From: Pontibacter qinzhouensis
GTDB lineage: Bacteria > Bacteroidota > Bacteroidia > Cytophagales > Hymenobacteraceae
Length of the DNA: 64,000 nt
Assembly (NCBI RefSeq): GCF_008017455.1
Contig: NZ_VRTY01000017.1
Coordinates: forward strand, 1-64,000
Direction: 5' to 3'
The translations under genes were made by a program, and so were the position numbers. Every line of letters begins with the position of its first letter. The stretch's first letter is position 1. Below are positions 2,881 through 36,286 of the stretch, piece by piece. The notes below the pieces were generated by a model, which worked only from the letters and a program-made list of their open reading frames with translations, ran no database searches and was not told where the DNA came from.

Positions 2881-5841
2881 ATGATGCGGTATAACTATAA
2901 TTTTATGAACCTGAATCGCCCTGCCATTTTTCGCCTATTTCTGGTAACTGTATGCTGTCTGCTGCTTTTAAGCCAAGGATCCAAAGCACAGCAAAAGGAA
3001 ATATCGCTGGCCGGTGACTGGAAATTCACCACTGACCCGACTGGCAAAGGGCTGACTGAAAAATGGTTCACCCAGAGCTTCCCCGAGCAGGTAAAGCTGC
3101 CGGGCTCTATGGCTGAAAACTTGAAGGGGAACGACATTACCCTGAAAACGGAATGGACCGCCAGCATTTACGACAGCTCCTGGTTTTACAATCCGCGGAT
3201 GGCCCGCTACCGCGAGCCAGGCAATATAAAAGTACCCTTCTGGCTTACACCTGCCAAGCACTATGTGGGACCGGCCTGGTATCAGAAAGAAGTAACCATT
3301 CCGGCCTCTTGGAAAGACAAACGGATAGTACTGGAGCTGGAGCGCGCGCACATTGCCACACACCTTTGGATTGATGAGCAGGAGATAGGGAAAGCAAACT
3401 CCCTGGTTGCACCACACCTGTACGACCTCACAGGCAAGCTCGCACCTGGCAAACACACCATCACCCTCCGGGTAGACAATACCATTACAGAAGATGTGAA
3501 TGTGGGCACAAATTCCCACAGCATCTCCGACCACACCCAGGGGAACTGGAATGGCGTAGTAGGCAACCTGATGCTGAAAGCAGGTTCTAAGGTATATTTT
3601 GATGATATACAGGTATTTCCTAATCTGAAAACAAAAACTGCCAGCGTCAAGCTGACCTTGCAAAACACCACAGATAAACCTGTAACCGGTAAAGTAAGCT
3701 TAGGAGCCAAAAGCTTTAACAGCGATAAAACCCATGCGGCACAGGCAAAGCCCGTAAATGTAAAGTTAAACCCAGGCGAAACAGTGCTCGACATAAACCT
3801 GCCGCTTGGAGAGAACATGCAAACCTGGGATGAGTTTAATCCTGCGCTGTATAAACTGACAGCAAAACTGGATGCAAAAGGAAACCAGGACGATGAGCAG
3901 GGAGTGCAGTTCGGAATGCGCGAAATAAGTGTAGAAGGAACCCGGATTATGGTGAACGGAAAGCCGGTTTTTCTGCGGGGCGACCTGAACAATTCCGAGT
4001 TTCCGCTAACAGGTTACCCGCCAACCGATGAGGCTTCCTGGGAGCGAATTTACAAAATAGCCAAGGCACACGGGCTTAATCACATCCGTTTCCACTCCTG
4101 GTGCCCGCCTGAAGCTGCTTTTATTGCCGCTGATAAGATTGGTATTTACCTGCAGCCTGAAGGCCCTACCTGGCCTAACCACAGCACCTCCCTTGGGAGT
4201 GGCAAAGCCATTGATACCTATATTTATGAGGAGACCAACCGCATGGCTAAACATTACGGCAACTATGCCTCCTTTACCATGTTGGCTGCCGGAAACGAAC
4301 CACGGGGCGGAAACCAGGCAAAATACCTGGCGGAATTCGTGAAATACTGGCAGAAGAAAGACAACCGCCGCATCTACACCGGAGCATCGGTGGCAATGAG
4401 CTGGCCCCTGGTACCCGAAAACGAATTTATGGTGAAGTCGGGGCCGCGTGGTTTAAACTGGCCGAATGCACGACCAGAAAATGAGGGCGATTACCGAACA
4501 AAGATTGAAGGCTTTACCGTGCCCTATGTTACCCATGAGATGGGCCAGTGGGTAGCCTTCCCCAACTTCGAGGAGATAAAGAAATACACCGGCGTTTACC
4601 GCGCTAAAAACTTCGAACTGTTTCAGGAAGACCTGGCGGACAGGGGGATGGGCGATCAGGCGAGAGACTTCCTGACGGCTTCGGGTAAATTACAGGCACT
4701 GTCTTATAAATTCGAGATTGAGCAATCGTTGCGTACGCCCGGGCTGGCAGGTTTCCAGCTGCTGGGGCTGCAGGATTTCCCGGGCCAGGGAACGGCGCTG
4801 GTAGGTGTACTCGATGCATTCTGGGAGAGCAAGGGCTATATTTCACCGGAAGAATTCCGCCGCTTTTGCAATACGACCGTTCCACTTACCCGAATGGCAA
4901 AGTTCGTTTACAAAAATAACGAAGTCCTGACGGCAAATGTGGAACTGTATCATTTCGGAGAGTCTGACCTGACCAATGCTATTTTGAACTGGGAGCTGAA
5001 AGATGATAAAAACAATGTAGTTGCTTCCGGTAGCTTGCCAGCCAAAGCTTTTCCACGGGGTGCCAATACCGAAGCAGGAAAGCTGGAGATACCGCTCACC
5101 AAAATTACAAAAGCCAGCAAACTGAACCTGTTTATTAAGCTGGCTGAAACCAATTTTGTAAATGACTGGAATGTGTGGGTGTACCCGGCGGAGGAGCTGC
5201 CAGTAGTAAAGTCAGATGTTTACTACACAAAGGTGCTGGACAAAAAAGCGGAAGAAGTGCTAAACAGGGGAGGCAGTGTGTTCCTGGATGCAGCCGGAAG
5301 CGTGGTAAAAGGTAAAGAGGTAATGATGTATTTCACGCCTGCTTTCTGGAACACCTCCTGGTTTAAGATGCGTCCGCCACACACCACAGGATCGCTTATA
5401 AAAGCAGATCATCCGGCTTTCGAGTATTTTCCTACAGAGTCGTTCACAGACCTGCAGTGGTGGGAGGTCGTAAACCGGGCACAGGTCATGCACCTGGAGG
5501 ACTTTCCGAAAGATTTTCGTCCAATCGTGCAGCCAATAGACACTTGGTTCATGAACCGGAAGCTGGGTCTTATCTACGAAGCCAGCGTAGGAAAAGGCAA
5601 ATTGCTTGTTTCCAGTGCCGACCTGACTTCAGACCTGGATAACCGCCCCGCTGCCCGGCAGTTGCGCTACAGCCTGCTGAGTTATATGGCTTCGGATAAG
5701 TTTCAGCCCAAAGACAAGCTTGATATGGAGTTGGTGCGGGATGTGTTCCAGACCCCATCCAGGGAAGTGTGGGATAGCTTTACCAAAGATAGTCCGGATG
5801 AGCTGAAGCCAAATCAAGGGCAGCAGCCTGTAGTAAAGTAA
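2881..5841 (+). CDS. Secreted GH2 family beta-glycosidase, 986 aa
   Basis: A signal peptide covers residues 1-36 (hydrophobic core LFLVTVCCLLLL, cut after SKA). The second ATG at 2905 is an alternative start. A GH2 sugar-binding jelly roll follows (about 40-240), then an immunoglobulin-like domain (about 240-345). The TIM barrel opens near residue 350 with VNGKPVFLRGDLNN. The acid/base candidate is Glu473 in AAGNEPRGG and the nucleophile candidate is Glu553 in YVTHEMGQW. The long C-terminal region (about 690-986) is shared with the partial protein at the window start, so this is a distinct long GH2 subgroup. GH2 enzymes cleave terminal beta-galactosyl, glucuronosyl, mannosyl or alpha-arabinopyranosyl groups; the exact substrate cannot be read from sequence. 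A remnant insertion sequence begins 30 bases after the stop. Confidence 0.85.
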   Translation: MMRYNYNFMNLNRPAIFRLFLVTVCCLLLLSQGSKAQQKEISLAGDWKFTTDPTGKGLTEKWFTQSFPEQVKLPGSMAENLKGNDITLKTEWTASIYDSSWFYNPRMARYREPGNIKVPFWLTPAKHYVGPAWYQKEVTIPASWKDKRIVLELERAHIATHLWIDEQEIGKANSLVAPHLYDLTGKLAPGKHTITLRVDNTITEDVNVGTNSHSISDHTQGNWNGVVGNLMLKAGSKVYFDDIQVFPNLKTKTASVKLTLQNTTDKPVTGKVSLGAKSFNSDKTHAAQAKPVNVKLNPGETVLDINLPLGENMQTWDEFNPALYKLTAKLDAKGNQDDEQGVQFGMREISVEGTRIMVNGKPVFLRGDLNNSEFPLTGYPPTDEASWERIYKIAKAHGLNHIRFHSWCPPEAAFIAADKIGIYLQPEGPTWPNHSTSLGSGKAIDTYIYEETNRMAKHYGNYASFTMLAAGNEPRGGNQAKYLAEFVKYWQKKDNRRIYTGASVAMSWPLVPENEFMVKSGPRGLNWPNARPENEGDYRTKIEGFTVPYVTHEMGQWVAFPNFEEIKKYTGVYRAKNFELFQEDLADRGMGDQARDFLTASGKLQALSYKFEIEQSLRTPGLAGFQLLGLQDFPGQGTALVGVLDAFWESKGYISPEEFRRFCNTTVPLTRMAKFVYKNNEVLTANVELYHFGESDLTNAILNWELKDDKNNVVASGSLPAKAFPRGANTEAGKLEIPLTKITKASKLNLFIKLAETNFVNDWNVWVYPAEELPVVKSDVYYTKVLDKKAEEVLNRGGSVFLDAAGSVVKGKEVMMYFTPAFWNTSWFKMRPPHTTGSLIKADHPAFEYFPTESFTDLQWWEVVNRAQVMHLEDFPKDFRPIVQPIDTWFMNRKLGLIYEASVGKGKLLVSSADLTSDLDNRPAARQLRYSLLSYMASDKFQPKDKLDMELVRDVFQTPSREVWDSFTKDSPDELKPNQGQQPVVK

Positions 5842-26550: not shown

Positions 26551-26572
26551 CCAGGTTTTTACCCTTACAAAG

Positions 26573-26722
26573 ATGAGCATCACGAAGAAACTACTCTGGA
26601 TAACTTTGCTGGCGCTGCTATTGGTGCCAGCAACAGGTAATGCTCAAAAAAAGGCTAAGTTGCCCATAACAAATCAACAACTCCAAAAACTAATAAAAAT
26701 GCTTCCAGATGGGCCATTGTAG
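26573..26722 (+). pseudogene. Truncated 49-codon ORF encoding a signal peptide only
   Basis: The ATG at 26573 opens a good signal peptide (KKLLWITLLALLLVPATGNA) followed by QKKAKLPI. From about 26661 the frame enters a repeated intergenic sequence also present at 36471-36570 and stops at a TAG ending at 26722. The ORF therefore seems to be the 5' end of a lost exported protein gene, cut by arrival of the repeat. It lies 22 bases after the double-GH43 gene, so the lost gene was probably the next member of that operon. Confidence 0.6.
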
Positions 26723-26755
26723 TGCCTTTTACAGCATTTTTAATATGGTGAAGCT
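26661..26755 (+). repeat. ~95-bp intergenic repeat shared with 36471-36570
   Basis: Both copies contain CATAACAAATCA, then CAACTCC, AAAATGCTTC, CCTTTT and GCATTT/ACATTT followed by a TGGTGAAG or TGGCGAAG box. Identity is high with small gaps. The second copy directly follows a 57-bp repeat; this one does not. Confidence 0.65.
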
Positions 26756-26861
26756 CCTAAGCTTAGCACCCAAAAAAGCTGTTCTTGCTATAGTTTGCTC
26801 TCATTAATGCCATTAGACTGAAAAAAAAATTAAAAGTTATGTGTCAATTATATAAATTTCC

Positions 26862-26869
26862 TATATTTG
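26862..26869 (+). promoter_or_regulatory. Candidate promoter of the SusC-sulfatase operon
   Basis: TATATTTG fits the Bacteroidota -7 element and lies about 95 bases before the leader-peptide ATG. A TTATG about 20 bases upstream could be a weak -33 element. It is the best promoter-like signal in the long gap before susC. Confidence 0.45.
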
Positions 26870-26956
26870 TCTAGTTATTTGATAGAGTTAATAGTAATAT
26901 AAGGCTTAGTTGATTCTTTTATAGCTCTGGTTGTTAAATGCATAACAAATAATAAT

Positions 26957-27061
26957 ATGAAACATCTTTATTTTATCTCACTTCCAGTCACCTTTACCTT
27001 AGCGGCGAGTTCTGCTTCTAGCTTAGGTCGTTTAAGCAACATCGCCTGCTGTTGTTGCTAA
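26957..27061 (+). CDS. 34-residue leader peptide ending in four cysteines
   Basis: ATG at 26957, TAA at 27059-27061. The N-terminus is signal-like (MKHLYFISLPVTFTLAAS), the middle is LGRLSNIA, and the last four codons before the stop are TGC TGT TGT TGC. The Cys codons lie inside a possible hairpin: AGCAACA (27035-27041) pairs with TGTTGCT (27053-27059). An exclusive alternative pairing exists between CTGC at 27046 and GCAG at 27070. Short upstream ORFs ending in a run of Cys codons are known in mycobacteria as cysteine-responsive attenuators. Here the downstream operon encodes two sulfatases and their activating enzyme, so sulfur-status control makes sense. Translation and function are inferred; a Cys-rich small secreted peptide is the alternative. 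It is too short for ordinary gene calling. Confidence 0.5.
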   Translation: MKHLYFISLPVTFTLAASSASSLGRLSNIACCCC

Positions 27062-27259
27062 TTCTATTTGCAGTTGAGGCTGCATTATAATCCTTCCTTT
27101 CAATAAATAATGGCTTTTTCAGCATCTGGTACATGATGAAAAGAGACATGGTTTTCCTGTTGCTTCCACCTTTCAGAACCTGAGAGGCAGGCAGAGATTT
27201 AATATAATAGCATATAGTAAGCAACCGGTGTAAGCTGGGATGCCAGGATATGTTATGTC

Positions 27260-27315
27260 AATAAAAAGCTTTCCCGGCTTATGGCGCCTCTGGTACAGGC
27301 ACCGGCCGGGAAAGC
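27260..27315 (-). terminator. Minus-strand terminator just upstream of susC
   Basis: GCTTTCCCGGC (27268-27278) and GCCGGGAAAGC (27305-27315) form a perfect 11-bp stem. On the minus strand the stem is followed by TTTTTATT (27267-27260). On the plus strand there is no T-run. It sits 30 bases before the susC start codon. I infer the 3' end of an antisense transcript starting inside or near the 5' part of susC. The hairpin may also fold in the sense leader. Confidence 0.65.
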
Positions 27316-27344
27316 AGCTAGAAAAATACTAACACACAAATTTA

Positions 27345-30300
27345 ATGATTAAGAAGAATTTACTGCATAAAAGTAGTAGGCTTTTGCTATTGCTGGCAGC
27401 GTATGGGCTGTCGTATCCTATACAGGCTGCTCCCCGCATTGCGTCTGACAATTCAGAAAGACGAATCTTAGAAAATAATTTTTTAAACTCACAACCGCAG
27501 CAAACGTCCATAACAGGTAGAGTTACGTCTCAGGAAGGAGAACCTCTGCCGGGTGTAACAGTTGTTCTTAAAGGGACTTCATTTGGATCCATAACAGATT
27601 TAGATGGCAATTTTAGCCTGAGTGCTTCCTTACAAGCCAACAATGTACTTGTCTTTTCTTTTGTGGGTTATCAGCCCAAAGAGGTGCCTTACAAAGCAGG
27701 GCAGCGGCTACAGGTTGTGCTTACAGAAGATGCCAAGTCGCTTAGTGAGGTAGTGGTAGTAGGGTATGGCACGCAGAAGAAAAGCGACCTGACCGGTTCG
27801 GTGGGTACGGTGTCAAAAGAACTAATTGAGCAGCAGCCAGTAAGCTCTATCGACAGAGCATTGCAAGGGGCAGCAGCAGGTGTGCAGGTAACGCAAACAT
27901 CGGGGCAGCCCGGTGGCGGTGTCAGTATTCGTATTCGGGGAGGAGGTTCTATTCAGGGAGGCAATGAGCCACTGTATGTTATAGATGGATTCCCGTTGTA
28001 TAATAATGCGGCCAGTGCAGGTGTTACCAGTGGCGCAGATGTTAACCCCCTGGCTAGTATAAACCCCAGTGACATAGAGTCGATGCATATACTGAAAGAT
28101 GCCTCTGCTACCGCTATTTATGGTTCTCGTGGGGCGAATGGGGTTATCATTATTACAACTAAAAAAGGTGCGGCAGGTACGAGCATAGTGAGTTATGAAG
28201 GAAGTTATGGCTTGCAAGCCCTGCGGCAAAAAATTGATTTACTGAACGCAAGTGAGTTTGCCCAGCTTCGCAACGAAGCATTGCAAGATAGAAACCCGGC
28301 TGGTGGTCCTTATCAGTATTTAGCCCCTGCTGAAATTGCCGCTTTGGGTACAGGAACGGATTGGCAGGATGCGGCTTTTCATCAGTCCCCTATCCAGAAC
28401 CATCAAATCTCGATATCCGGTGGAAACGAAAAAACTCGTTATGCCCTTACAGGAGGATATTTCGGACAAGATGGTATTATCAGGAATACGGACTTCAAGC
28501 GGTTAAGCGCCAGAATTAACCTCGATTCTAAAATTACCGATAAGTTCAATGTGGGGCTGAATCTTACCGGGAGCAGAACAGATGCTAACTTAGCTCCCTC
28601 CGGTATCGTGAGTTCTTTGCTTACAATGCCTCCTACCGCTACCATTTATGAAGCAGATGGAAACTATACTTTTCGGAATCCCTTTGAAAACCTTATTACT
28701 AATCCCATAGCATCATTGTTTGAGCAGACAAACAAAACAAATACCTTGCGGGTTCTCAGCACGATTTATGGCGAATACACACTGTTAGATGGACTCGTTG
28801 CTAAAGTATCTTTCGGAACAGATATTACTACTACAAAAGATGAAAGTTACATTCCGAGAACGTTGTATGAGGGAATTGCTGTAAACGGGCAGGCCGCAAT
28901 AGGTCAGTTAAACTCCTATTCCTGGTTAAACGAAAATACCTTAACCTATAGAAAGGAATCCGGCAAACATTCGCTTAATGCGTTATTAGGTTTTACCCAA
29001 CAGGAATTTTCTAATGATGTTTTCAGGGCTGGCTCTCAACAGTTCGTGTCAGATGACCTTACCTACAACAGTCTTCAAGGAGGTGCCACTCCTACAGTTC
29101 CTTACTCTGATGCTTACTCCTGGTCCTTAATATCGTATCTGGGCAGATTGAACTATTTCTTCGATCAGCGTTACTTTTTTACAGCTAGTTTAAGGGCAGA
29201 CGGTTCCTCTAGGTTTGGGAAGAACAACAAGTGGGGCTATTTCCCGTCTGTTGCTTTTGCCTGGAAAATTAGCAACGAGAACTTCTTTACGAATGTAAAT
29301 CTTCCCATCACCGATTTTAAGTTCAGGACAAGCTTTGGTGCCACCGGTAACCAGGAAATAGGCATGTACCAGTCCCTGTCGACCTTAAGCAGCGTGCGGG
29401 TGCTGCTGGGAGAACAGATAACCACTGGCTTCAGACCCGACAGAATCGCAAACGACAACCTGGGCTGGGAAACAACTTACCAGTTTGACTCCGGAATTGA
29501 CCTGGGGCTGTTCGAGAACAGGCTCCTGCTGACAGTGGATGGCTACTATAAGAAAACAGTCGATCTGCTGCTCAACGTGCAGATTCCGTGGACATCCGGG
29601 CACTCTTCTTCGCTTCAGAACTTTGGCGCTGTAGAAAACCGCGGGCTAGAGTTCGGGATTAATACAGTTAACATTGATAATGGCGCTCTTACCTGGAACT
29701 CCAGCCTCAACCTGGCCTTTAATCGGAACAAAGTATTGAAAATAGGAGATGGTCAAGAGGATTTTATCATTAGTGGAGACTACATCATAAAAGTTGGCGA
29801 ACCTTTAGGCTCTTTTTATGGCTCTGTAACAGATGGCGTTTTGCAGCCGGGCGAAGTTGCTGAAAAGGGAAATCTAACTGGTAAATCTTCACCAAAAGCC
29901 GGGGACAGGCTCTACAAAGATGTCGATAATAATGGTACCTTCTCTAATGCTGCAGATAGAGCTATTATTGGCAATGCCCAACCTGACTACTTTTTTGGAT
30001 TAACAAATAATATTGCCTGGAAAGGATTGGATTTGTCTGTTTTCTTGCAGGGGTCTGTTGGAAACCAGATTGTTAATAAAAACAGGCAAAGTCTTGAGCT
30101 CTTTACTGGTTTGCAGAATGCAGCTGGTTCTGCTCGGGATAGATGGTCTCCTTCTAACACTGATACAGATATTCCGAGAGCATCCTCTGACCCATCCAAT
30201 ATCTTTTCTAACCGGTTTGTTGAAGACGGTTCCTATATACGGCTCAAAAATATTACACTGGGTTACACACTGCCTGTTGCCCTTACCAAATGGGCACGTG

Positions 30301-30470
30301 TATCGAATGCACGTCTGTTTATAACAGGCCAAAACCTCCTTACCTGGACAAGCTATACAGGCTACGACCCCGAAGTAACATCTACTAACAACACGGTTTC
30401 TCAAGGTACAGACCAAGGTGTTTACCCCGTGGCAAAAACAGTTACAACCGGAGTAAAAGTTACCTTCTAG
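27345..30470 (+). CDS. SusC/RagA-family TonB-linked outer membrane transporter, 1041 aa
   Basis: A signal peptide ends near residue 28 (YPIQAAP). A carboxypeptidase-like regulatory domain follows (about 53-130: ITGRVTSQEGEPLPGVTVVL), then the TonB-box/plug start VVVVGYGTQKKSDLTGSVGT (about 137-156) with GGGSIQGGNEPLYVIDGFPL, then the 22-strand barrel to the C-terminal aromatic F. It imports oligosaccharides across the outer membrane together with the SusD-like protein encoded 34 bases downstream. Length and motifs are normal. Downstream sulfatases suggest that the imported glycan is sulfated. The leader carries the CCCC peptide and a minus-strand terminator. Confidence 0.96.
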   Translation: MIKKNLLHKSSRLLLLLAAYGLSYPIQAAPRIASDNSERRILENNFLNSQPQQTSITGRVTSQEGEPLPGVTVVLKGTSFGSITDLDGNFSLSASLQANNVLVFSFVGYQPKEVPYKAGQRLQVVLTEDAKSLSEVVVVGYGTQKKSDLTGSVGTVSKELIEQQPVSSIDRALQGAAAGVQVTQTSGQPGGGVSIRIRGGGSIQGGNEPLYVIDGFPLYNNAASAGVTSGADVNPLASINPSDIESMHILKDASATAIYGSRGANGVIIITTKKGAAGTSIVSYEGSYGLQALRQKIDLLNASEFAQLRNEALQDRNPAGGPYQYLAPAEIAALGTGTDWQDAAFHQSPIQNHQISISGGNEKTRYALTGGYFGQDGIIRNTDFKRLSARINLDSKITDKFNVGLNLTGSRTDANLAPSGIVSSLLTMPPTATIYEADGNYTFRNPFENLITNPIASLFEQTNKTNTLRVLSTIYGEYTLLDGLVAKVSFGTDITTTKDESYIPRTLYEGIAVNGQAAIGQLNSYSWLNENTLTYRKESGKHSLNALLGFTQQEFSNDVFRAGSQQFVSDDLTYNSLQGGATPTVPYSDAYSWSLISYLGRLNYFFDQRYFFTASLRADGSSRFGKNNKWGYFPSVAFAWKISNENFFTNVNLPITDFKFRTSFGATGNQEIGMYQSLSTLSSVRVLLGEQITTGFRPDRIANDNLGWETTYQFDSGIDLGLFENRLLLTVDGYYKKTVDLLLNVQIPWTSGHSSSLQNFGAVENRGLEFGINTVNIDNGALTWNSSLNLAFNRNKVLKIGDGQEDFIISGDYIIKVGEPLGSFYGSVTDGVLQPGEVAEKGNLTGKSSPKAGDRLYKDVDNNGTFSNAADRAIIGNAQPDYFFGLTNNIAWKGLDLSVFLQGSVGNQIVNKNRQSLELFTGLQNAAGSARDRWSPSNTDTDIPRASSDPSNIFSNRFVEDGSYIRLKNITLGYTLPVALTKWARVSNARLFITGQNLLTWTSYTGYDPEVTSTNNTVSQGTDQGVYPVAKTVTTGVKVTF

Positions 30471-30504
30471 AAGAATTTAGTAAAATTTAAAGCCAGTATG
30501 ATAC

Positions 30505-31953
30505 ATGAAAAAATTAACATATATTCTGTTGCTATTCTCTTTTTCTTGCACAAACCTTGAAGAAGTTCCACCTTCTAATTTAACTACTGAGCAATTTTAT
30601 AAAAACGAGAAAGATGCATTAGCTGCTGTAAATGCTATTTATCACCGCATGTTTACCGAACAGTTAGTGCTTTTTAACCGGCAGCTCATGATGTTAGAAA
30701 TGGCCACTGACGATGTTACAGCCGGTCCCCGTACCAGAAGCGCCCAGGTGGTGGATATGTCGAAGCTCCAACACGTGCCTAACAACACAGCCGTTGAATG
30801 GACCTGGCAATATACCTACGAAGCCATAAACAGGGCAAATATTGCGGTTGACAGGATAGAGGCATTAGGTGAAGACGTAATTAACAGTGAGCTTAAAACG
30901 AGGTTGGTGAACGAAGCCAAATTATTGAGGGCCTGGAATTATTTTAACCTTGTCAGGTGGTTTGGTCCTGTTCCTCTTATACTGCACGAAACTACGTCGC
31001 TTACAAACGAAGCCTTGCAAGTGCAACAAGCTTCGGAAGAAGTGCTCTATAACCAGATAATTCTTGACCTCACATCGGCTGAGAGTCTGCCGGCACCTGG
31101 TACTTACGCTACAGCCGATGCAGGCAGGGTAACAGCTGGTGCTGCCAAAACTCTTCTGGCCAAGGTATACCTTACCAGAAAGGAATGGGGTAAGGCGGCA
31201 GACAAGCTAAAAGAGGTAATTGATTTAGGATGGTATAGTTTGTTCGATAATTTTGCTGATGTGTATAATGTAGCCACAAAGAATGGCAAGGAACACATCT
31301 TCTCCATCCAGTTTAATGGCGACCCTTCTATTGTCAATCACCTGGCCATGTTTTCGCTGCCATTCGAGTTTAATGGCGAATACGTAGATGCCCCCCATTT
31401 GCCAGGCCAGCTTTATGAAAGTTACGACCTGCAGGACGAAAGAAGGAATTTAACACTGGCTAAACAGTTGTATAATCCGCAGACAGGGCAAACCGTAAAT
31501 CTGCAGCACCTGACCTATGTCAAGTTTTTTGATTCTTCCAAAGCGTTAGCGCCCCAGCAATCTGCCAAAAATATACCGCTTTTCAGGTATGCCGATATTC
31601 TGCTGATGTATGCAGAAGCTTTAAATGAACTTAACGGACCTACGCAGGAGGCTTATCATCCTATCAACCTGGTAAGGCAGCGGGCCCATATTCCGTTGCT
31701 TCAGGAGGTAAGCCTCAATTTAACGAAGGAGCAGTTCCGGGATGCGGTATTTCTGGAGAGGCGGAAGGAACTGGCACTGGAATACCACCGCTGGTTTGAC
31801 CTGGCCAGAAGAGGTCCGGAAGAGTATGTGAAAGCACTACATGCAGCTGGTAAAACAAATGCAGCGCCACGCCATGTGCATTTTCCTGTTCCGCAACGCG
31901 AACTGCAGCTAAACTTAAACCTCCGGCAGCATCCTGACTGGGTAGGGTTCTGA
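30505..31953 (+). CDS. SusD/RagB-family glycan-binding lipoprotein
   Basis: The N-terminus is a lipoprotein signal (LLLFSFSC, Cys near residue 15). The N-terminal SusD domain contains PPSNLTTEQFYKNEKDALAA, and the TPR-rich core contains LRAWNYFNLVRWFGPVPLI. The C-terminal half holds LFRYADILLMYAEALNEL and the family ending FPVPQRELQLNLNLRQHPDW. At 482 residues it is of usual size. It forms the lid of the SusC transporter and binds the oligosaccharide at the surface. Confidence 0.95.
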   Translation: MKKLTYILLLFSFSCTNLEEVPPSNLTTEQFYKNEKDALAAVNAIYHRMFTEQLVLFNRQLMMLEMATDDVTAGPRTRSAQVVDMSKLQHVPNNTAVEWTWQYTYEAINRANIAVDRIEALGEDVINSELKTRLVNEAKLLRAWNYFNLVRWFGPVPLILHETTSLTNEALQVQQASEEVLYNQIILDLTSAESLPAPGTYATADAGRVTAGAAKTLLAKVYLTRKEWGKAADKLKEVIDLGWYSLFDNFADVYNVATKNGKEHIFSIQFNGDPSIVNHLAMFSLPFEFNGEYVDAPHLPGQLYESYDLQDERRNLTLAKQLYNPQTGQTVNLQHLTYVKFFDSSKALAPQQSAKNIPLFRYADILLMYAEALNELNGPTQEAYHPINLVRQRAHIPLLQEVSLNLTKEQFRDAVFLERRKELALEYHRWFDLARRGPEEYVKALHAAGKTNAAPRHVHFPVPQRELQLNLNLRQHPDWVGF

Positions 31954-31988
31954 TTAGTCTATTTTTCATTGTAAACGAAACGCGATAT

Positions 31989-33662
31989 ATGATATTTCAA
32001 GGAAAATTACTGGCGCATGCACTTGCCGTGCTCCTGTTGGCCAACTCTGTTGCCGATACCACGGCACAAAAGCGAAACGAAAAACCAAATATCGTCTTGA
32101 TAATGGTAGATGATATGGGTTATTCTGACTTAGGCAGTTATGGCTCCGAAATTTCCACCCCTAATCTGGACAAACTGGCTTCGGAAGGAACACGGTTCAG
32201 AGAATTCTATAACAATTCGATCTGTGCTCCTACACGCGCATCGCTGCTTACAGGCCAGTATCAGCATAAGGCTGGTGTGGGTTATTTTGATGTGAACCTA
32301 GGATTGCCAGCCTACCAGGGCTACCTGAACCGGGAGTCGCTTACCCTGGCAGAAGTGTTGCAGGCTAATGGTTACAGCACCCTGATGGCAGGAAAGTGGC
32401 ATGTTGGTAAAGACAGCCTTGCCTGGCCAAACCAACGTGGGTTCGAGCAGTTTTATGGCTTTATTCCTGGTGCAAGCAACTACTTCGACATAGGTGAATA
32501 TGGAACTGCTCCACCGGTTGTGCTGGTAAAAAATAACCAAAAAGAACATCTGAAACCAGGTGAGTACTTAACCAATACCATAACAGATAATGCGCTGGCA
32601 TTTTTAGAGCAACAGAATAAACATAAAAAGCCATTCTTTTTATACCTCGCTTACAATGCTCCTCACTGGCCTTTGCAGGCATTACCGGAAGATATTGCCA
32701 AATACAAAGGCCGCTATAACATAGGCTGGGACTCTTTGCGGGAAGAGCGTCTGTCTCGCCAGGCAGCTTTAGGCCTGCTGCCCCCGAACCAGACAATAGC
32801 AGCAAGAGACCCGGAAGTGCCGCTCTGGGAAAACCTGAACTACGACACAAAACAACTCTGGCAAGCCAAAATGGAAGTGTATGCGGCCATGGTCGATCGG
32901 GTAGACCAGAATGTAGGCAGGGTCTTACATAAACTGAAGGATTTGGGGAAAGCTGAAAACACACTCATAGTGTTTATATCGGACAACGGGGCGCAGGGCG
33001 GCTATGTAAACCCTTTAAGAAGAGGGAGCAGCCGAAACTCCGGCCCTATCGGTACGCCAGGTTCTTACGATTACCAGGAGCAAAGCTGGGCCTATGTGTC
33101 TAATACTCCTCTTCGCCAGTACAAGAACAATATGCACGAAGGAGGATTCAGAACACCATTTATTGCCTGGTTTCCGGGTAAAATAAAGCCGGGCTCGCTA
33201 GTGAAAGGAACAGGCCATTTAATTGACCTGGCCCCAACCTTTTATGAATTGGCCGGTGCAAAATATCCTGCCACATACAAGGGAGCTACTGCACATCCTT
33301 TGGCTGGTAAAAGTCTGTTGCCAGTGCTATACGGCAGGGCAGAGGAAGTAAACAGAGGAGAACCCATATTTTGGGAACGAGCAGGAAACAGAGCTGCCAG
33401 AGAGGGCCAATGGAAAATTGTGTCTGACTACCCCGGCTACACCTGGGAGCTGTACAACCTGGATAATGACTTGGGCGAAACCAGAGACCTGGCAAGCCAG
33501 CATCCTGACATTGTGAACTCGTTAGCTGCTAAGTATTTTAAGTGGGCAGAGCGAACCGGAGTAGTAGATTACGACAAGATTAAAAGAAACGGAAACGCTG
33601 CTCCAGCCGAAGCTCCCAGAACACCAACTACGGCCCGGTCTGCCCCCCAACGAACCAACTGA
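31989..33662 (+). CDS. Secreted type I sulfatase (formylglycine-dependent)
   Basis: A signal peptide ends near residue 27. The metal-binding start NIVLIMVDDMGYSDLGSYG is followed by the sulfatase signature with Cys79 in ICAPTRASLLTGQY, so the Cys of C-x-P-x-R is available for conversion to formylglycine. Further family features are AGKWHVGKD (Lys and His of the active site), FFLYLAYNAPHWPLQ, and SDNGAQGG for the second metal site. The length of 557 is usual for S1-family arylsulfatases. It removes sulfate esters from glycan fragments in the periplasm. The C-terminal 20 residues are low-complexity (Pro/Ala/Thr). Confidence 0.93.
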   Translation: MIFQGKLLAHALAVLLLANSVADTTAQKRNEKPNIVLIMVDDMGYSDLGSYGSEISTPNLDKLASEGTRFREFYNNSICAPTRASLLTGQYQHKAGVGYFDVNLGLPAYQGYLNRESLTLAEVLQANGYSTLMAGKWHVGKDSLAWPNQRGFEQFYGFIPGASNYFDIGEYGTAPPVVLVKNNQKEHLKPGEYLTNTITDNALAFLEQQNKHKKPFFLYLAYNAPHWPLQALPEDIAKYKGRYNIGWDSLREERLSRQAALGLLPPNQTIAARDPEVPLWENLNYDTKQLWQAKMEVYAAMVDRVDQNVGRVLHKLKDLGKAENTLIVFISDNGAQGGYVNPLRRGSSRNSGPIGTPGSYDYQEQSWAYVSNTPLRQYKNNMHEGGFRTPFIAWFPGKIKPGSLVKGTGHLIDLAPTFYELAGAKYPATYKGATAHPLAGKSLLPVLYGRAEEVNRGEPIFWERAGNRAAREGQWKIVSDYPGYTWELYNLDNDLGETRDLASQHPDIVNSLAAKYFKWAERTGVVDYDKIKRNGNAAPAEAPRTPTTARSAPQRTN

Positions 33663-33700
33663 TTTAAGAATACTTGCTGATGGCGTTAAATGTAAAGCAT

Positions 33701-34594
33701 ATGAAAAGCCTTTCAAAAAAGGCTATAGCAGTATACAGCTCTATGGTGGTTGGCATATTTGCCGTGAGTAGCCTGGTAGCAGCTCCTTTCTTTATGTCAA
33801 AGGCTAATCCTGATAAGGCGCTTTATCCGGAAATGGCTTTGATTCCGGGAGGGATGCTCGAAACAGAAAATTCGGCCAGAGAGCGAACCAAAGAAAGAAT
33901 AGCTCCTTTTTACCTAGACAAAAACCTGGTTACAGTGGCTGAATTCGATGCTTTTGTAAAGGCAACCGGCTACACCACAGAGGCAGAAAAATTCGGAAAT
34001 TCGGGCGTGTTTAATTTTCAGAAGCACGGCTGGGATATAGAAGAAGGTGCCAATTACCTCTATCCTTTCGGTAAGGACAAACCAGCTGCGCAGCCAGACC
34101 ACCCCGTTACACAGGTCTCCTGGAACGATGCCAGAGCCTATGCAGCCTGGAGAGGCAAAAGGCTTCCTACCCAGTGGGAGTGGGAGTGGGCAGCCATGAA
34201 TGGGCAACAGTCGGAGCAGGTATACACCTGGGGTAACCAGCTTATGGAGGGCGGCAAGTACAAAGCTAATACCTGGCAAGGAGCCTTTCCGGCTTACAAT
34301 ACCTTACAAGATGGCTATGAAGCTACCTCGCCGGTTGGTGCCTTTGGCGAAAATAAGATGGGGCTAACCGATATGGGGGGCAATGTTTGGCAATGGTGCC
34401 ACGACGATGTTGCGCCAAACCAGGCCGACGCCAGCTTAGATCCGGGCATAAGAAAAGTATTGCGTGGCGGCTCCTTCCTTTGCGACCCTGGTGTGTGCCA
34501 TGGTTACCAGATAAAGGGGCGAGCCTCTTCTACTCCCGAATCAGCTATGGTGCATATAGGCTTCAGATGTGCAAAAGATATTAACCAAGATTAA
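33701..34594 (+). CDS. Formylglycine-generating enzyme (SUMF1/FGE family), exported
   Basis: I chose the ATG at 33701 (MKSLSKKAIAVYSS...), which gives a standard export signal; ATG 33680 is an in-frame alternative. The FGE-sulfatase domain begins at LIPGGMLETENS and includes PVTQVSWNDARAYAAWRGKR, LPTQWEWEWAA and MGGNVWQWCHD. Near the C-terminus GGSFLCDPGVCHGYQ carries Cys261 and Cys266, spaced as the two catalytic cysteines of aerobic copper-dependent FGE. RASSTPESAMVHIGFRCA completes the family signature. Many proteins of this superfamily lack those cysteines, so this one is probably a true FGE. It sits between the two CAPTR sulfatase genes and should activate both after export. Confidence 0.9.
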   Translation: MKSLSKKAIAVYSSMVVGIFAVSSLVAAPFFMSKANPDKALYPEMALIPGGMLETENSARERTKERIAPFYLDKNLVTVAEFDAFVKATGYTTEAEKFGNSGVFNFQKHGWDIEEGANYLYPFGKDKPAAQPDHPVTQVSWNDARAYAAWRGKRLPTQWEWEWAAMNGQQSEQVYTWGNQLMEGGKYKANTWQGAFPAYNTLQDGYEATSPVGAFGENKMGLTDMGGNVWQWCHDDVAPNQADASLDPGIRKVLRGGSFLCDPGVCHGYQIKGRASSTPESAMVHIGFRCAKDINQD

Positions 34595-34606
34595 ACACAA
34601 AAAAAT

Positions 34607-36286
34607 ATGAGAGTAAAAAGTAGCATTTTTATCAAGAGCAGCTTGCCGGTACTTGCTGTTCTAGTCATGTTCGCCTGCACGCGCATAGGCCAGAAAGAGG
34701 CAGAAAGCACAGAAGCAGAGCGCCCCAATGTCGTGCTCATCCTCACCGACGATTTAGGATATTCTGACATAGGAGCCTACGGAAGTGAAATTAACACCCC
34801 CAATCTCGATGCCTTGGCAGCATCTGGGGTGCGCTTTAAGGAGTTTTACAATGTCGGCATCTGTGCCCCTACACGCGCGGCTCTTTTAACAGGGCAGTAT
34901 AACCATAATGCAGGCATCGGGCACTTTTCTTCAGACCTGGGCAACGAATATTACCAAGGCTACATCAGGAAAAACGTGCCAACCATTGCCGAAGTGCTCA
35001 GAGCTAATGGGTACAACACCCTGATGTCGGGAAAATGGCACGTAGGTTCTGATTCTCTGCAAGGCCCATCCCATAGAGGGTTCGATAATTTTTACGGGTT
35101 CTTAGGTGGTGCAAGTGTTTTCTTTGCGCATAGTCCTAACACAACCAACCTGACTGCGCTAAACCGGAATGACCAGAAAATTACAGCGCCGGATGACCCG
35201 TCATTCTATCTGACAGATGCCATTACAGACGAGGCGATTCAGATGATCGGCTCTACACAGAAACCAAACAATCCGTTTTTCCTGTATCTGGCCTACAACG
35301 CGCCACACTGGCCGCTTCAGGCAATGCCTGAAGATATAGCCAAATACAAAGGCAGGTATAATACTGGCTGGGACAACTTAAGCGAAGCCAGGTTTCAGAA
35401 GCAACTGGAACTGGGTATTGTCGACAAAGGTTTTGTAAAACCCGAAAGGCCATCAACCATACCAGCCTGGACGAGTTTAAGCGAGCAAGACAGGCAGGAG
35501 TGGGCCGCCAGAATGGAAGTGCACGCTGCCATGATTGACCGGATGGACCAGAACCTGGGGAAGCTAATTGCCTACTTAAAACAGTCTGGCCAATACGACA
35601 ACACCATTTTTTTCTTTATGTCTGATAATGGCGCTGCAGGAGAAGAAATGACCAGAAACCAGGCTGGCGATAGCAAACCTGTTGTAGGAACAGCAGACTC
35701 ATATTATTCTATAACCCACCACTGGGCTTATGCTGCCAATACACCTTTTTCTTATTGGAAGTCGATACCTTACGAAGGGGGCTTAAGTTCTCCTTTTATT
35801 GCTTCGTTCCCGAAGGCTTTTAACCAGAACAGAATAGTAACAGGAAGAGGGCATTTAATTGATATACTGCCTACCATTCTGGAAGCAACCCGGAGCACCT
35901 ACCTGCAGGAAATTAATGGAAACCAAACCAGGCCACTTGCAGGTAAGTCGCTGGTGCCACTCCTGAGCGGTAACTCTACTGTGAGCCACGATACCTTGTT
36001 CTTTGAATGGGGTGGTAACAGAGCAGTTAGGGCAGGCGATTGGAAGTTGCTTGCCCTGCGCGGAAGTCCGAACTGGAAACTGTATAACATTAAAACAGAC
36101 AGAGGCGAAACAAAAGATGTGGCCGCTGCAAATCCTGGCTTGGTTAATGACTTGAAAGGCACCTACCTTAACTGGGCTAAAGCGAACCACGTAACCAATA
36201 CCGACTCCCTGCTACACGTTACCCAGAACAGCATGCTGCAATTTCAGAAAAGGATAGAACAGACCATACCTAAAGAAGTGCTGTAG
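34607..36286 (+). CDS. Type I sulfatase lipoprotein (formylglycine-dependent)
   Basis: The lipoprotein signal has lipobox MFAC (Cys near residue 24). The catalytic Cys86 lies in GICAPTRAALLTGQY. NVVLILTDDLGYSDIGAYG, SGKWHVGSD, FFLYLAYNAPHWPLQ and SDNGAAGEEM mark the active site. It is a paralogue of the sulfatase encoded upstream with the same length class, but lipid-anchored. A 12-base gap to the FGE gene supports co-translation. The different anchoring suggests that the two sulfatases handle different positions or stages of the same sulfated glycan. Confidence 0.93.
   Translation: MRVKSSIFIKSSLPVLAVLVMFACTRIGQKEAESTEAERPNVVLILTDDLGYSDIGAYGSEINTPNLDALAASGVRFKEFYNVGICAPTRAALLTGQYNHNAGIGHFSSDLGNEYYQGYIRKNVPTIAEVLRANGYNTLMSGKWHVGSDSLQGPSHRGFDNFYGFLGGASVFFAHSPNTTNLTALNRNDQKITAPDDPSFYLTDAITDEAIQMIGSTQKPNNPFFLYLAYNAPHWPLQAMPEDIAKYKGRYNTGWDNLSEARFQKQLELGIVDKGFVKPERPSTIPAWTSLSEQDRQEWAARMEVHAAMIDRMDQNLGKLIAYLKQSGQYDNTIFFFMSDNGAAGEEMTRNQAGDSKPVVGTADSYYSITHHWAYAANTPFSYWKSIPYEGGLSSPFIASFPKAFNQNRIVTGRGHLIDILPTILEATRSTYLQEINGNQTRPLAGKSLVPLLSGNSTVSHDTLFFEWGGNRAVRAGDWKLLALRGSPNWKLYNIKTDRGETKDVAAANPGLVNDLKGTYLNWAKANHVTNTDSLLHVTQNSMLQFQKRIEQTIPKEVL

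Follow-up and report, generated by a model that had tools for sequence, protein, structure and literature searches.

The window analysed here, a stretch of 64,000 nucleotides of the Pontibacter qinzhouensis genome, carries on its plus strand a run of five genes that opens with susC (27345-30470), encoding a TonB-dependent outer-membrane receptor, and susD (30505-31953). These are followed by a sulfatase gene (31989-33662), a gene for a formylglycine-generating enzyme (FGE) domain protein associated with sulfatase activation (33674-34594) and a second sulfatase gene (34607-36286). All five were assigned with Pfam, and both sulfatases contain in addition a CAPTR motif, which we take to be the Cys-type form of the active site. 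Since a single gene run unites susC, susD and sulfatases, the operon is a SusCD-sulfatase locus, a class normally seen as glycan-induced carbon-use loci. Genes of families GH2 and GH43 sit 5' of it on the same strand, with one more GH43 gene on its 3' side, so that the neighbourhood is one of glycan use, and this counts against the sulfur-related reading developed below. The operon itself contains no glycoside hydrolase by Pfam, and none was found among ten proteins tested from three related loci, which comprised sulfatases, FGE, a rhodanese-thioredoxin protein, hydroxylase- or dioxygenase-type proteins and unknowns; this fits sulfate as the object of the operons without proving it.

The 5' leader of the operon contains a 34-codon ORF on the plus strand (26957-27061; MKHLYFISLPVTFTLAASSASSLGRLSNIACCCC), counterparts of which precede related operons. 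The peptide ends in GRLSNIACCCC (here and below, peptide ends are written up to the stop codon). Its four Cys codons, TGC TGT TGT TGC (27047-27058), stand directly 5' of the stop codon TAA, filling positions 27047-27061 together with it, and are the proposed sensing site. Four TGY codons followed by a stop occur a single time in the window when both strands are scanned, at the end of this ORF, and the same string with a TAR stop, found once, is expected 0.01 times by shuffling. Shuffles of the 600 nt 5' of susC (n = 2000) contained an ORF with at least three Cys in its last six residues in 1.55% of cases, and an ORF ending in CCCC in none. The ORF is real, and its being a chance product is very unlikely. 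Both the 34-residue ORF ending in four cysteines and a stop, and its place in the 5' leader of a susC-susD-sulfatase-FGE-sulfatase operon, were part of the original prediction and are borne out by the ORF and by the Pfam-typed genes at 27345-36286. The signal-like N-terminus of the peptide is probably incidental, because the peptide bodies of leaders elsewhere differ; a reading of the ORF as a signal peptide or lipoprotein was rejected on the same ground.

Upstream of the ORF a Bacteroidota-type -7 promoter element, TATATTTG (26862-26869, plus strand), was placed from the sequence together with a predicted start site; we take it to match the Bacteroidota -7 consensus TAnnTTTG. The ATG at 26957 lies about 80 nt 3' of the start site predicted in this way. 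Directly 3' of the -7 element sits a palindromic putative operator of the form TCTA-N9-TAGA (26870-26886; TCTAGTTATTTGATAGA), and TTTG abuts the operator also in a P. qinzhouensis paralog, C90a, and in most of the aligned Flavobacterium rows. When the intergenic stretch 26551-27344 of the window was shuffled 3000 times, a single shuffle contained the combined string TTTGTCTA-N9-TAGA.

The stop codon of the ORF is separated from susC by a long leader of 283 nt (27062-27344, plus strand), in which no plus-strand intrinsic terminator was found; a scan for stems with loops of 3-8 bases returned no plus-strand terminator-like site in 26700-27500. A strong hairpin at 27268-27315 is absent from that scan, which covers these loop sizes only. 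Its minus-strand fold reaches -34.3 kcal/mol (z -5.5) and takes the form of an intrinsic terminator on that strand. With an A-tract (27263-27267) upstream and no T-tract behind it, the hairpin would suit the termination of an antisense RNA, as we infer from these flanks.

Cys-ending leaders in related loci

No close ortholog of the operon was found among 204 genomes of the family (best SusD identity 48%; the sole match within the genus 39%), and public genomes were therefore scanned with SusD. Relatives were picked by SusD similarity, blind to leaders, and from a scan that gave at least 597 stretches the best 80 of at least 578 Bacteroidota relatives were taken; neighbouring genes were typed with the window proteins first and leaders were read afterwards. 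A leader was scored as a short ORF with at least three Cys in its last six residues, and sulfatase linkage as a sulfatase match no more than 2 kb after susD (L099 enters solely by the 2-kb limit; the limit was 1.6 kb in the count of the immediate 600 nt). Left out of the 80 were three loci without readable upstream sequence and L087, L118 and L103, where the contig ends after susD. The region before one preceding ORF was also scanned, which adds L091, L094, L102 and L110, and L096 (leader ending NTTCCC) went uncounted since its leader overlaps the preceding ORF.

The search for Cys-ending ORFs before sulfatase-linked susC genes, which the original prediction had proposed, showed that such a leader precedes 46 of 62 sulfatase-linked operons versus 0 of 12 without a sulfatase (Fisher p 1.4e-6; best 80 of at least 578 relatives), a locus-level count that is inflated because the loci are related, 32 of the 46 positives being Flavobacterium. 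Counted by group, the figures are 11 of 20 versus 0 of 8 (p 0.0097). When only the immediate 600 nt are considered, 42 of 61 sulfatase-linked loci have a leader versus 0.39 expected from dinucleotide shuffles. Of 624 other ORFs of the same loci, nine have such a Cys-ending ORF upstream; four of these are the leaders of Dyadobacter and Paludibacter described below, and three are Flavobacterium ORFs of the YMCxCC type (one CCMCFCC) before other genes. The original prediction had also turned on whether relatives with such operons keep the ORF; outside the family most of those compared do, as the 46 of 62 show, and inside it no ortholog was found.

Sixteen of the 62 sulfatase-linked operons lack a leader by this criterion, including all three from Sphingobacterium and two gut-type Bacteroidales. 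In L095 and L140, where the susC ORF is split, the leader is absent with the correct susC start as well. The leaders before susC in Sphingobacterium L085, L090 and L095 end in RMRMCR or RMRMCS, with one Cys there. Among the 12 non-sulfatase relatives an ECF-type sigma gene lies upstream in all five checked by Pfam, and FecR is present in both of those tested for it; a sigma gene also lies upstream in L099, which is sulfatase-linked and has no Cys leader.

Across genera the leaders have unlike bodies and varying lengths, and the Cys-rich end is their common part. Before susC, the peptides end in KKQYCCCC in Pedobacter, VCMCCCC in Mucilaginibacter, CCSVCCCKM in Chitinophaga, SFCCCCC in Niastella, KVCCCCC in Ferruginibacter, EYCCCCC in Arachidicoccus and LKICCCC in another Chitinophagaceae genome, while Flavobacterium leaders usually end in YMCxCC (MCCCC in F. 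taihuense). In Dyadobacter (GKCCRRYC, GCCRCC) and Paludibacter (MCCCSVAC, MCCCCMPC) one extra ORF lies between leader and susC; this ORF (L091:5860-6804, L102:5855-6784) encodes 309-314 aa and has no Pfam match. A short upstream ORF ending SRCCSCRC was also seen at a PhyH-domain gene that lies 3' of the sulfatase gene in Niastella (L106:13919-14800).

In the Flavobacterium group 35 of 35 loci have a Cys-ending leader. Among 30 distinct 28-codon Flavobacterium forms Met24, Cys25, Cys27 and Cys28 are invariant, with both Cys codons in use; the stop is TAA in all 33 sequences, and the 25 Flavobacterium rows aligned without a filter begin with TTG or GTG. The in-frame pN/pS of the Flavobacterium leaders is 0.44 versus 1.13 and 0.70 off-frame, and without the last six codons 0.61 versus 1.12 and 0.63, in a set that excludes L109 and L114 (29 codons) and whose ORFs were chosen by a start-codon and Cys filter, which removed no locus of the group (35 of 35). 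The Cys end is held constant and the body is weakly constrained, as is expected of a leader, unlike a functional peptide.

The palindrome and leaders at sulfur genes

The operator was sought in the relatives as an exact TCTA-N9-TAGA within 800 nt of susC. It is present in 36 of 43 poly-Cys loci versus 0.45 expected, divided by kinship into 31 of 34 in the Flavobacterium group and 5 of 9 elsewhere. Sulfatase loci without a leader have it in 2 of 14 cases and the loci typed as non-sulfatase at that stage in 0 of 13; the weak-Cys loci L080, L085, L090 and L095, counted apart, have it in one of four. Of the Sphingobacterium palindromes, that of L085 matches exactly and that of L090 differs by a single letter. 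Three genomes from the same genus, picked up via the poly-Cys pattern alone, share a conserved leader ending TACCCC before a TonB receptor, and all three also carry the exact palindrome. Exact matches number three in a Flavobacterium genome and two in a Pedobacter genome.

The P. qinzhouensis genome holds five exact copies of TTTGTCTA-N9-TAGA, compared with about 0.7 in a hand estimate that assumes equal base use; with one mismatch allowed the operator shows no excess in this genome (38 versus 40 in controls). One copy is that of the window, one lies on contig C69 and three lie on contig C90 (L184, L185), in a sulfur island with an Rrf2 regulator, a TauE-type sulfite exporter, a YeiH-like protein, susC and susD genes, a SoxC-type sulfite dehydrogenase (473.8 bits, cut-off 420) and a PLP enzyme of Cys/Met metabolism. 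The first C90 operator leads to the leader MKNIYSIRSHEGLSTFESNDIVLMQNRICCCC (MKNIY…RICCCC) before susC-susD, and the second to MENKTLHQFNLAPAALHLRMFIYVVDSICC (MENK…SICC) before the PLP enzyme; the third precedes a DUF2490-TauE pair, where no Cys leader was seen. The Rrf2 protein encoded between two of the C90 operators has CymR as its best equivalog model, with 84 bits, far below the cut-off of 195. On C69 the exact operator (L186, around position 3500) stands before a TonB-dependent receptor gene with no Cys leader. In an alignment of the window leader with the first C90 leader (paralog C90a) three parts are kept, namely operator and promoter, Cys run and pre-susC hairpin, the rest having mostly drifted. 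A second susC on C90 shares the hairpin of the window; about 600 nt 5' of this gene, behind a degenerate operator recognised by eye, comes an ORF whose peptide ends in RCC. An ORF ending MPACCCC on contig C188 of P. qinzhouensis was set aside, as no sulfur context was seen there.

The hairpin element yields three matches in the P. qinzhouensis genome at E <= 0.01, each before a susC (window 27263-27345; C90:11375-11511; C90:33253-33386). The three hairpins, each with an A-tract upstream, are then followed by a shared CAAATTTA, which reads TAAATTTG on the minus strand, and this arrangement could possibly mark a short antisense RNA over the susC leader.

In Ferruginibacter paludis each of the four exact operators is found at, or next to, genes linked to sulfur. 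One precedes the sulfatase operon. Another stands ahead of a MetY-MetX-like pair (OAH/OAS sulfhydrylase 685 bits, cut-off 495; MetX 339.8 bits, below the cut-off of 500) with a Cys-rich leader ending HCCQWLPRC, and a third follows that pair directly and leads, with a leader ending YGCCC, to a short SusC-like ORF and a gene for a redoxin-domain protein. The fourth has a TauE/siroheme-synthase locus on one side and a TonB receptor gene on the other. A poly-Cys leader without the TCTA-N9-TAGA operator was found before serine O-acetyltransferase and cysK genes in a further Bacteroidota genome (G425, L071:7357-7446, minus strand; MKTFASISHSSFSLQLNCCRSNNCACCCC, ending NCACCCC).

Known systems and a proposed cysteine-sensing leader

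Seliverstov et al. (2005, PMC1262725) describe poly-Cys leader ORFs at mycobacterial and other actinobacterial cys operons, report no conserved terminator hairpin there and suggest Rho, and a further source treats poly-Cys leaders as established in Actinobacteria (PMC9094748). The window leader is like these in being a short ORF with consecutive Cys codons at the stop, in lying upstream of sulfur-acquisition genes, in recurring in relatives and in that no intrinsic terminator was found, a situation for which Rho has been suggested (PMC1262725). It is unlike them in its phylum, the Bacteroidota, in its target, an outer-membrane SusCD uptake system with sulfatases, in not being leaderless by its predicted start site and in its pairing with a promoter palindrome. 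A mycobacterial poly-Cys study of 2020 by Canestrari and colleagues is said to have a 'leaderless' ORF in its title. The window leader is thus a known kind of element in a new setting.

Leader-peptide attenuation has likewise been inferred in Bacteroidota, at amino-acid biosynthesis operons of Flavobacterium psychrophilum, and the available part of that source names no cysteine leader and no sulfatase operon (PMC9723704). Short leader ORFs are noted in the 5' UTRs of B. thetaiotaomicron in another (PMC7366714). Full-text literature searches, which covered few subscription papers, showed among the titles and abstracts listed nothing on a cysteine leader ahead of a sulfatase or susC operon in Bacteroidota. 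PULs under ECF sigma/FecR control contain the same SusCD class as the window operon; unlike them, 46 of the 62 sulfatase-linked relatives (best 80 of at least 578) carry a Cys leader. CymR-type cysteine regulons of the Rrf2 family have a counterpart in the Rrf2 domain protein of the P. qinzhouensis sulfur island, which differs in scoring 84 bits against the CymR cut-off of 195 and is a candidate for binding the operator.

What can be read directly is the ORF, its Cys run, the promoter operator, the long leader, the operon content and the recurrence of both the Cys-ending ORF and the operator at related operons and sulfur genes. That the leader is real and tied to sulfur control appears very probable to us on these grounds, and it is likely, with little less confidence, that the ORF encodes a leader peptide which senses cysteine and controls a SusCD-sulfatase operon for sulfate scavenging. 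Leader anatomy is consistent with ribosomes stalling at the terminal Cys codons, and stalling is probably how cysteine would be sensed. With plentiful Cys-tRNA(Cys) the ribosome would pass the Cys codons and stop, and downstream expression would be attenuated; with scarce cysteine it would stall on the last four codons and expression would proceed. We incline slightly towards a leader that acts mainly through transcription. Downstream, the exposed leader may be open to Rho-dependent termination, or structure may affect the expression of susC; either ranks as likelier than a classical terminator/antiterminator switch because no plus-strand intrinsic terminator was found in the window. The operator would form a second regulatory layer, with the Rrf2-family regulator of the C90 island as its candidate binding protein, and the physiological output would be the uptake of sulfated glycans or esters for sulfate.

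Slightly more probable than not is a wider reading, in which a Bacteroidota-wide set of PUL-like SusCD loci would be sulfur scavengers governed by cysteine and not by glycan. They would belong to one regulon, made up of the (TTTG)TCTA-N9-TAGA palindrome, probably read by an Rrf2 protein, of Cys-ending leaders before sulfatase, TonB-receptor, metY-metX and related operons, and of the hairpin 5' of susC, at which an antisense RNA may end. If many SusCD-sulfatase loci respond to cysteine shortage, the sulfated polymer would be a sulfur source and substrate predictions would change; an operator joined to a Cys-ending leader could serve as a signature that tells sulfur-driven from carbon-driven loci. 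Cysteine-sensing leader peptides would then extend from Actinobacteria to outer-membrane uptake in Bacteroidota. The analysis names a testable candidate operator and regulator, and the sulfur regulon is a prediction.

RNA structure and alternative explanations

The original prediction had drawn the Cys codons into a hairpin at 27035-27059 that competes with a pairing at 27070. The hairpin can indeed be drawn (-7.4 kcal/mol, next to an alternative fold of 27040-27090 at -9.4), but the 154 nt of 26957-27110 do not fold more stably than shuffled sequence (z -0.28), the Cys codons of the window show no excess pairing with the downstream leader (z +1.18) and no plus-strand intrinsic terminator was found. 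The hairpin switch thus finds no support in the window, whereas the core idea of a poly-Cys leader that links a SusCD-sulfatase operon to the supply of cysteine or sulfur is strongly supported by the comparative counts and by the recurrence at sulfur genes. The RNA families of Rfam 15 (riboswitches, T-box and others) gave no match in the window at the gathering score, and in seven further loci they matched only a tRNA far from the leader (L083:16011-16080).

The alternative that survives best is classical transcription attenuation, with the Cys codons competing in a terminator/antiterminator RNA switch. Over 16 leaders plus-strand terminator-like sites are modestly above chance, 5 versus 1.5 expected (minus-strand ones more so, 7 versus 1.4), paralog C90a among the five leaders that have one, and Cys-codon pairing with the downstream leader has a mean z of -0.63 (combined -2.5). 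A second mini-ORF, MKxMQxCCCK, which lies 29-134 nt 5' of susC in L113, L119, L128 and other Flavobacterium loci, abuts a shared hairpin whose loop and 3' arm could, by eye, pair with its Cys codons. We nevertheless consider this mechanism unlikely. The window has no intrinsic terminator between the ORF and the first gene, and its z values for folding and pairing are those just given; in 6 of the 16 leaders, that of the window included, an A-tract precedes the strongest hairpin ahead of the next gene and no T-tract comes behind it. A C-rich, G-poor (rut-like) segment after the stop, as Rho might use, is clear in C90b (35 C, 4 G) and some others of 21 leaders and absent after the window leader stop (17 C, 18 G), so that Rho is invoked for the window by inference.

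Regulation could instead rest with the operator alone, the Cys-ending ORF being translated yet incidental or encoding a functional small Cys-rich peptide, for example one that binds thiols or metals. In favour of this, Sphingobacterium L085 and Desertivirga L098 have an exact operator but no poly-Cys leader, and C69 of P. qinzhouensis has one with no Cys leader. Against it, the Cys run occupies the C-terminus of unlike bodies of differing length, as is expected of codons read by a ribosome; the P. qinzhouensis paralog keeps the run and flanking elements with a drifted body; and the leader before serine O-acetyltransferase and cysK occurs without the operator. We regard the operator acting alone as distinctly improbable.

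That the ORF arose by chance and CTGCTGTTGTTGCTAA is a coincidence is the least probable explanation: such strings do arise by chance, and of 12 poly-Cys matches outside P. qinzhouensis seven look accidental by context and one is cut by a contig end, but 0 of 2000 shuffles yield CCCC 5' of susC, and position, operator, operon type and comparative counts all agree. The raw poly-Cys string was itself rejected as evidence, with 14 matches (two in P. qinzhouensis) in 392 genomes versus 10 backward-control matches; it is not clearly enriched phylum-wide, and therefore context alone counts. The end I-A-CCCC-stop occurs in none of the other members of a 99-genome search, its six matches being the window and five strings with TGG, which the pattern admits. 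At locus L063 (G540:C170:2-19) a string reading ACCCC-stop, cut by the contig end, lies 6 nt 5' of a 438-codon ORF.
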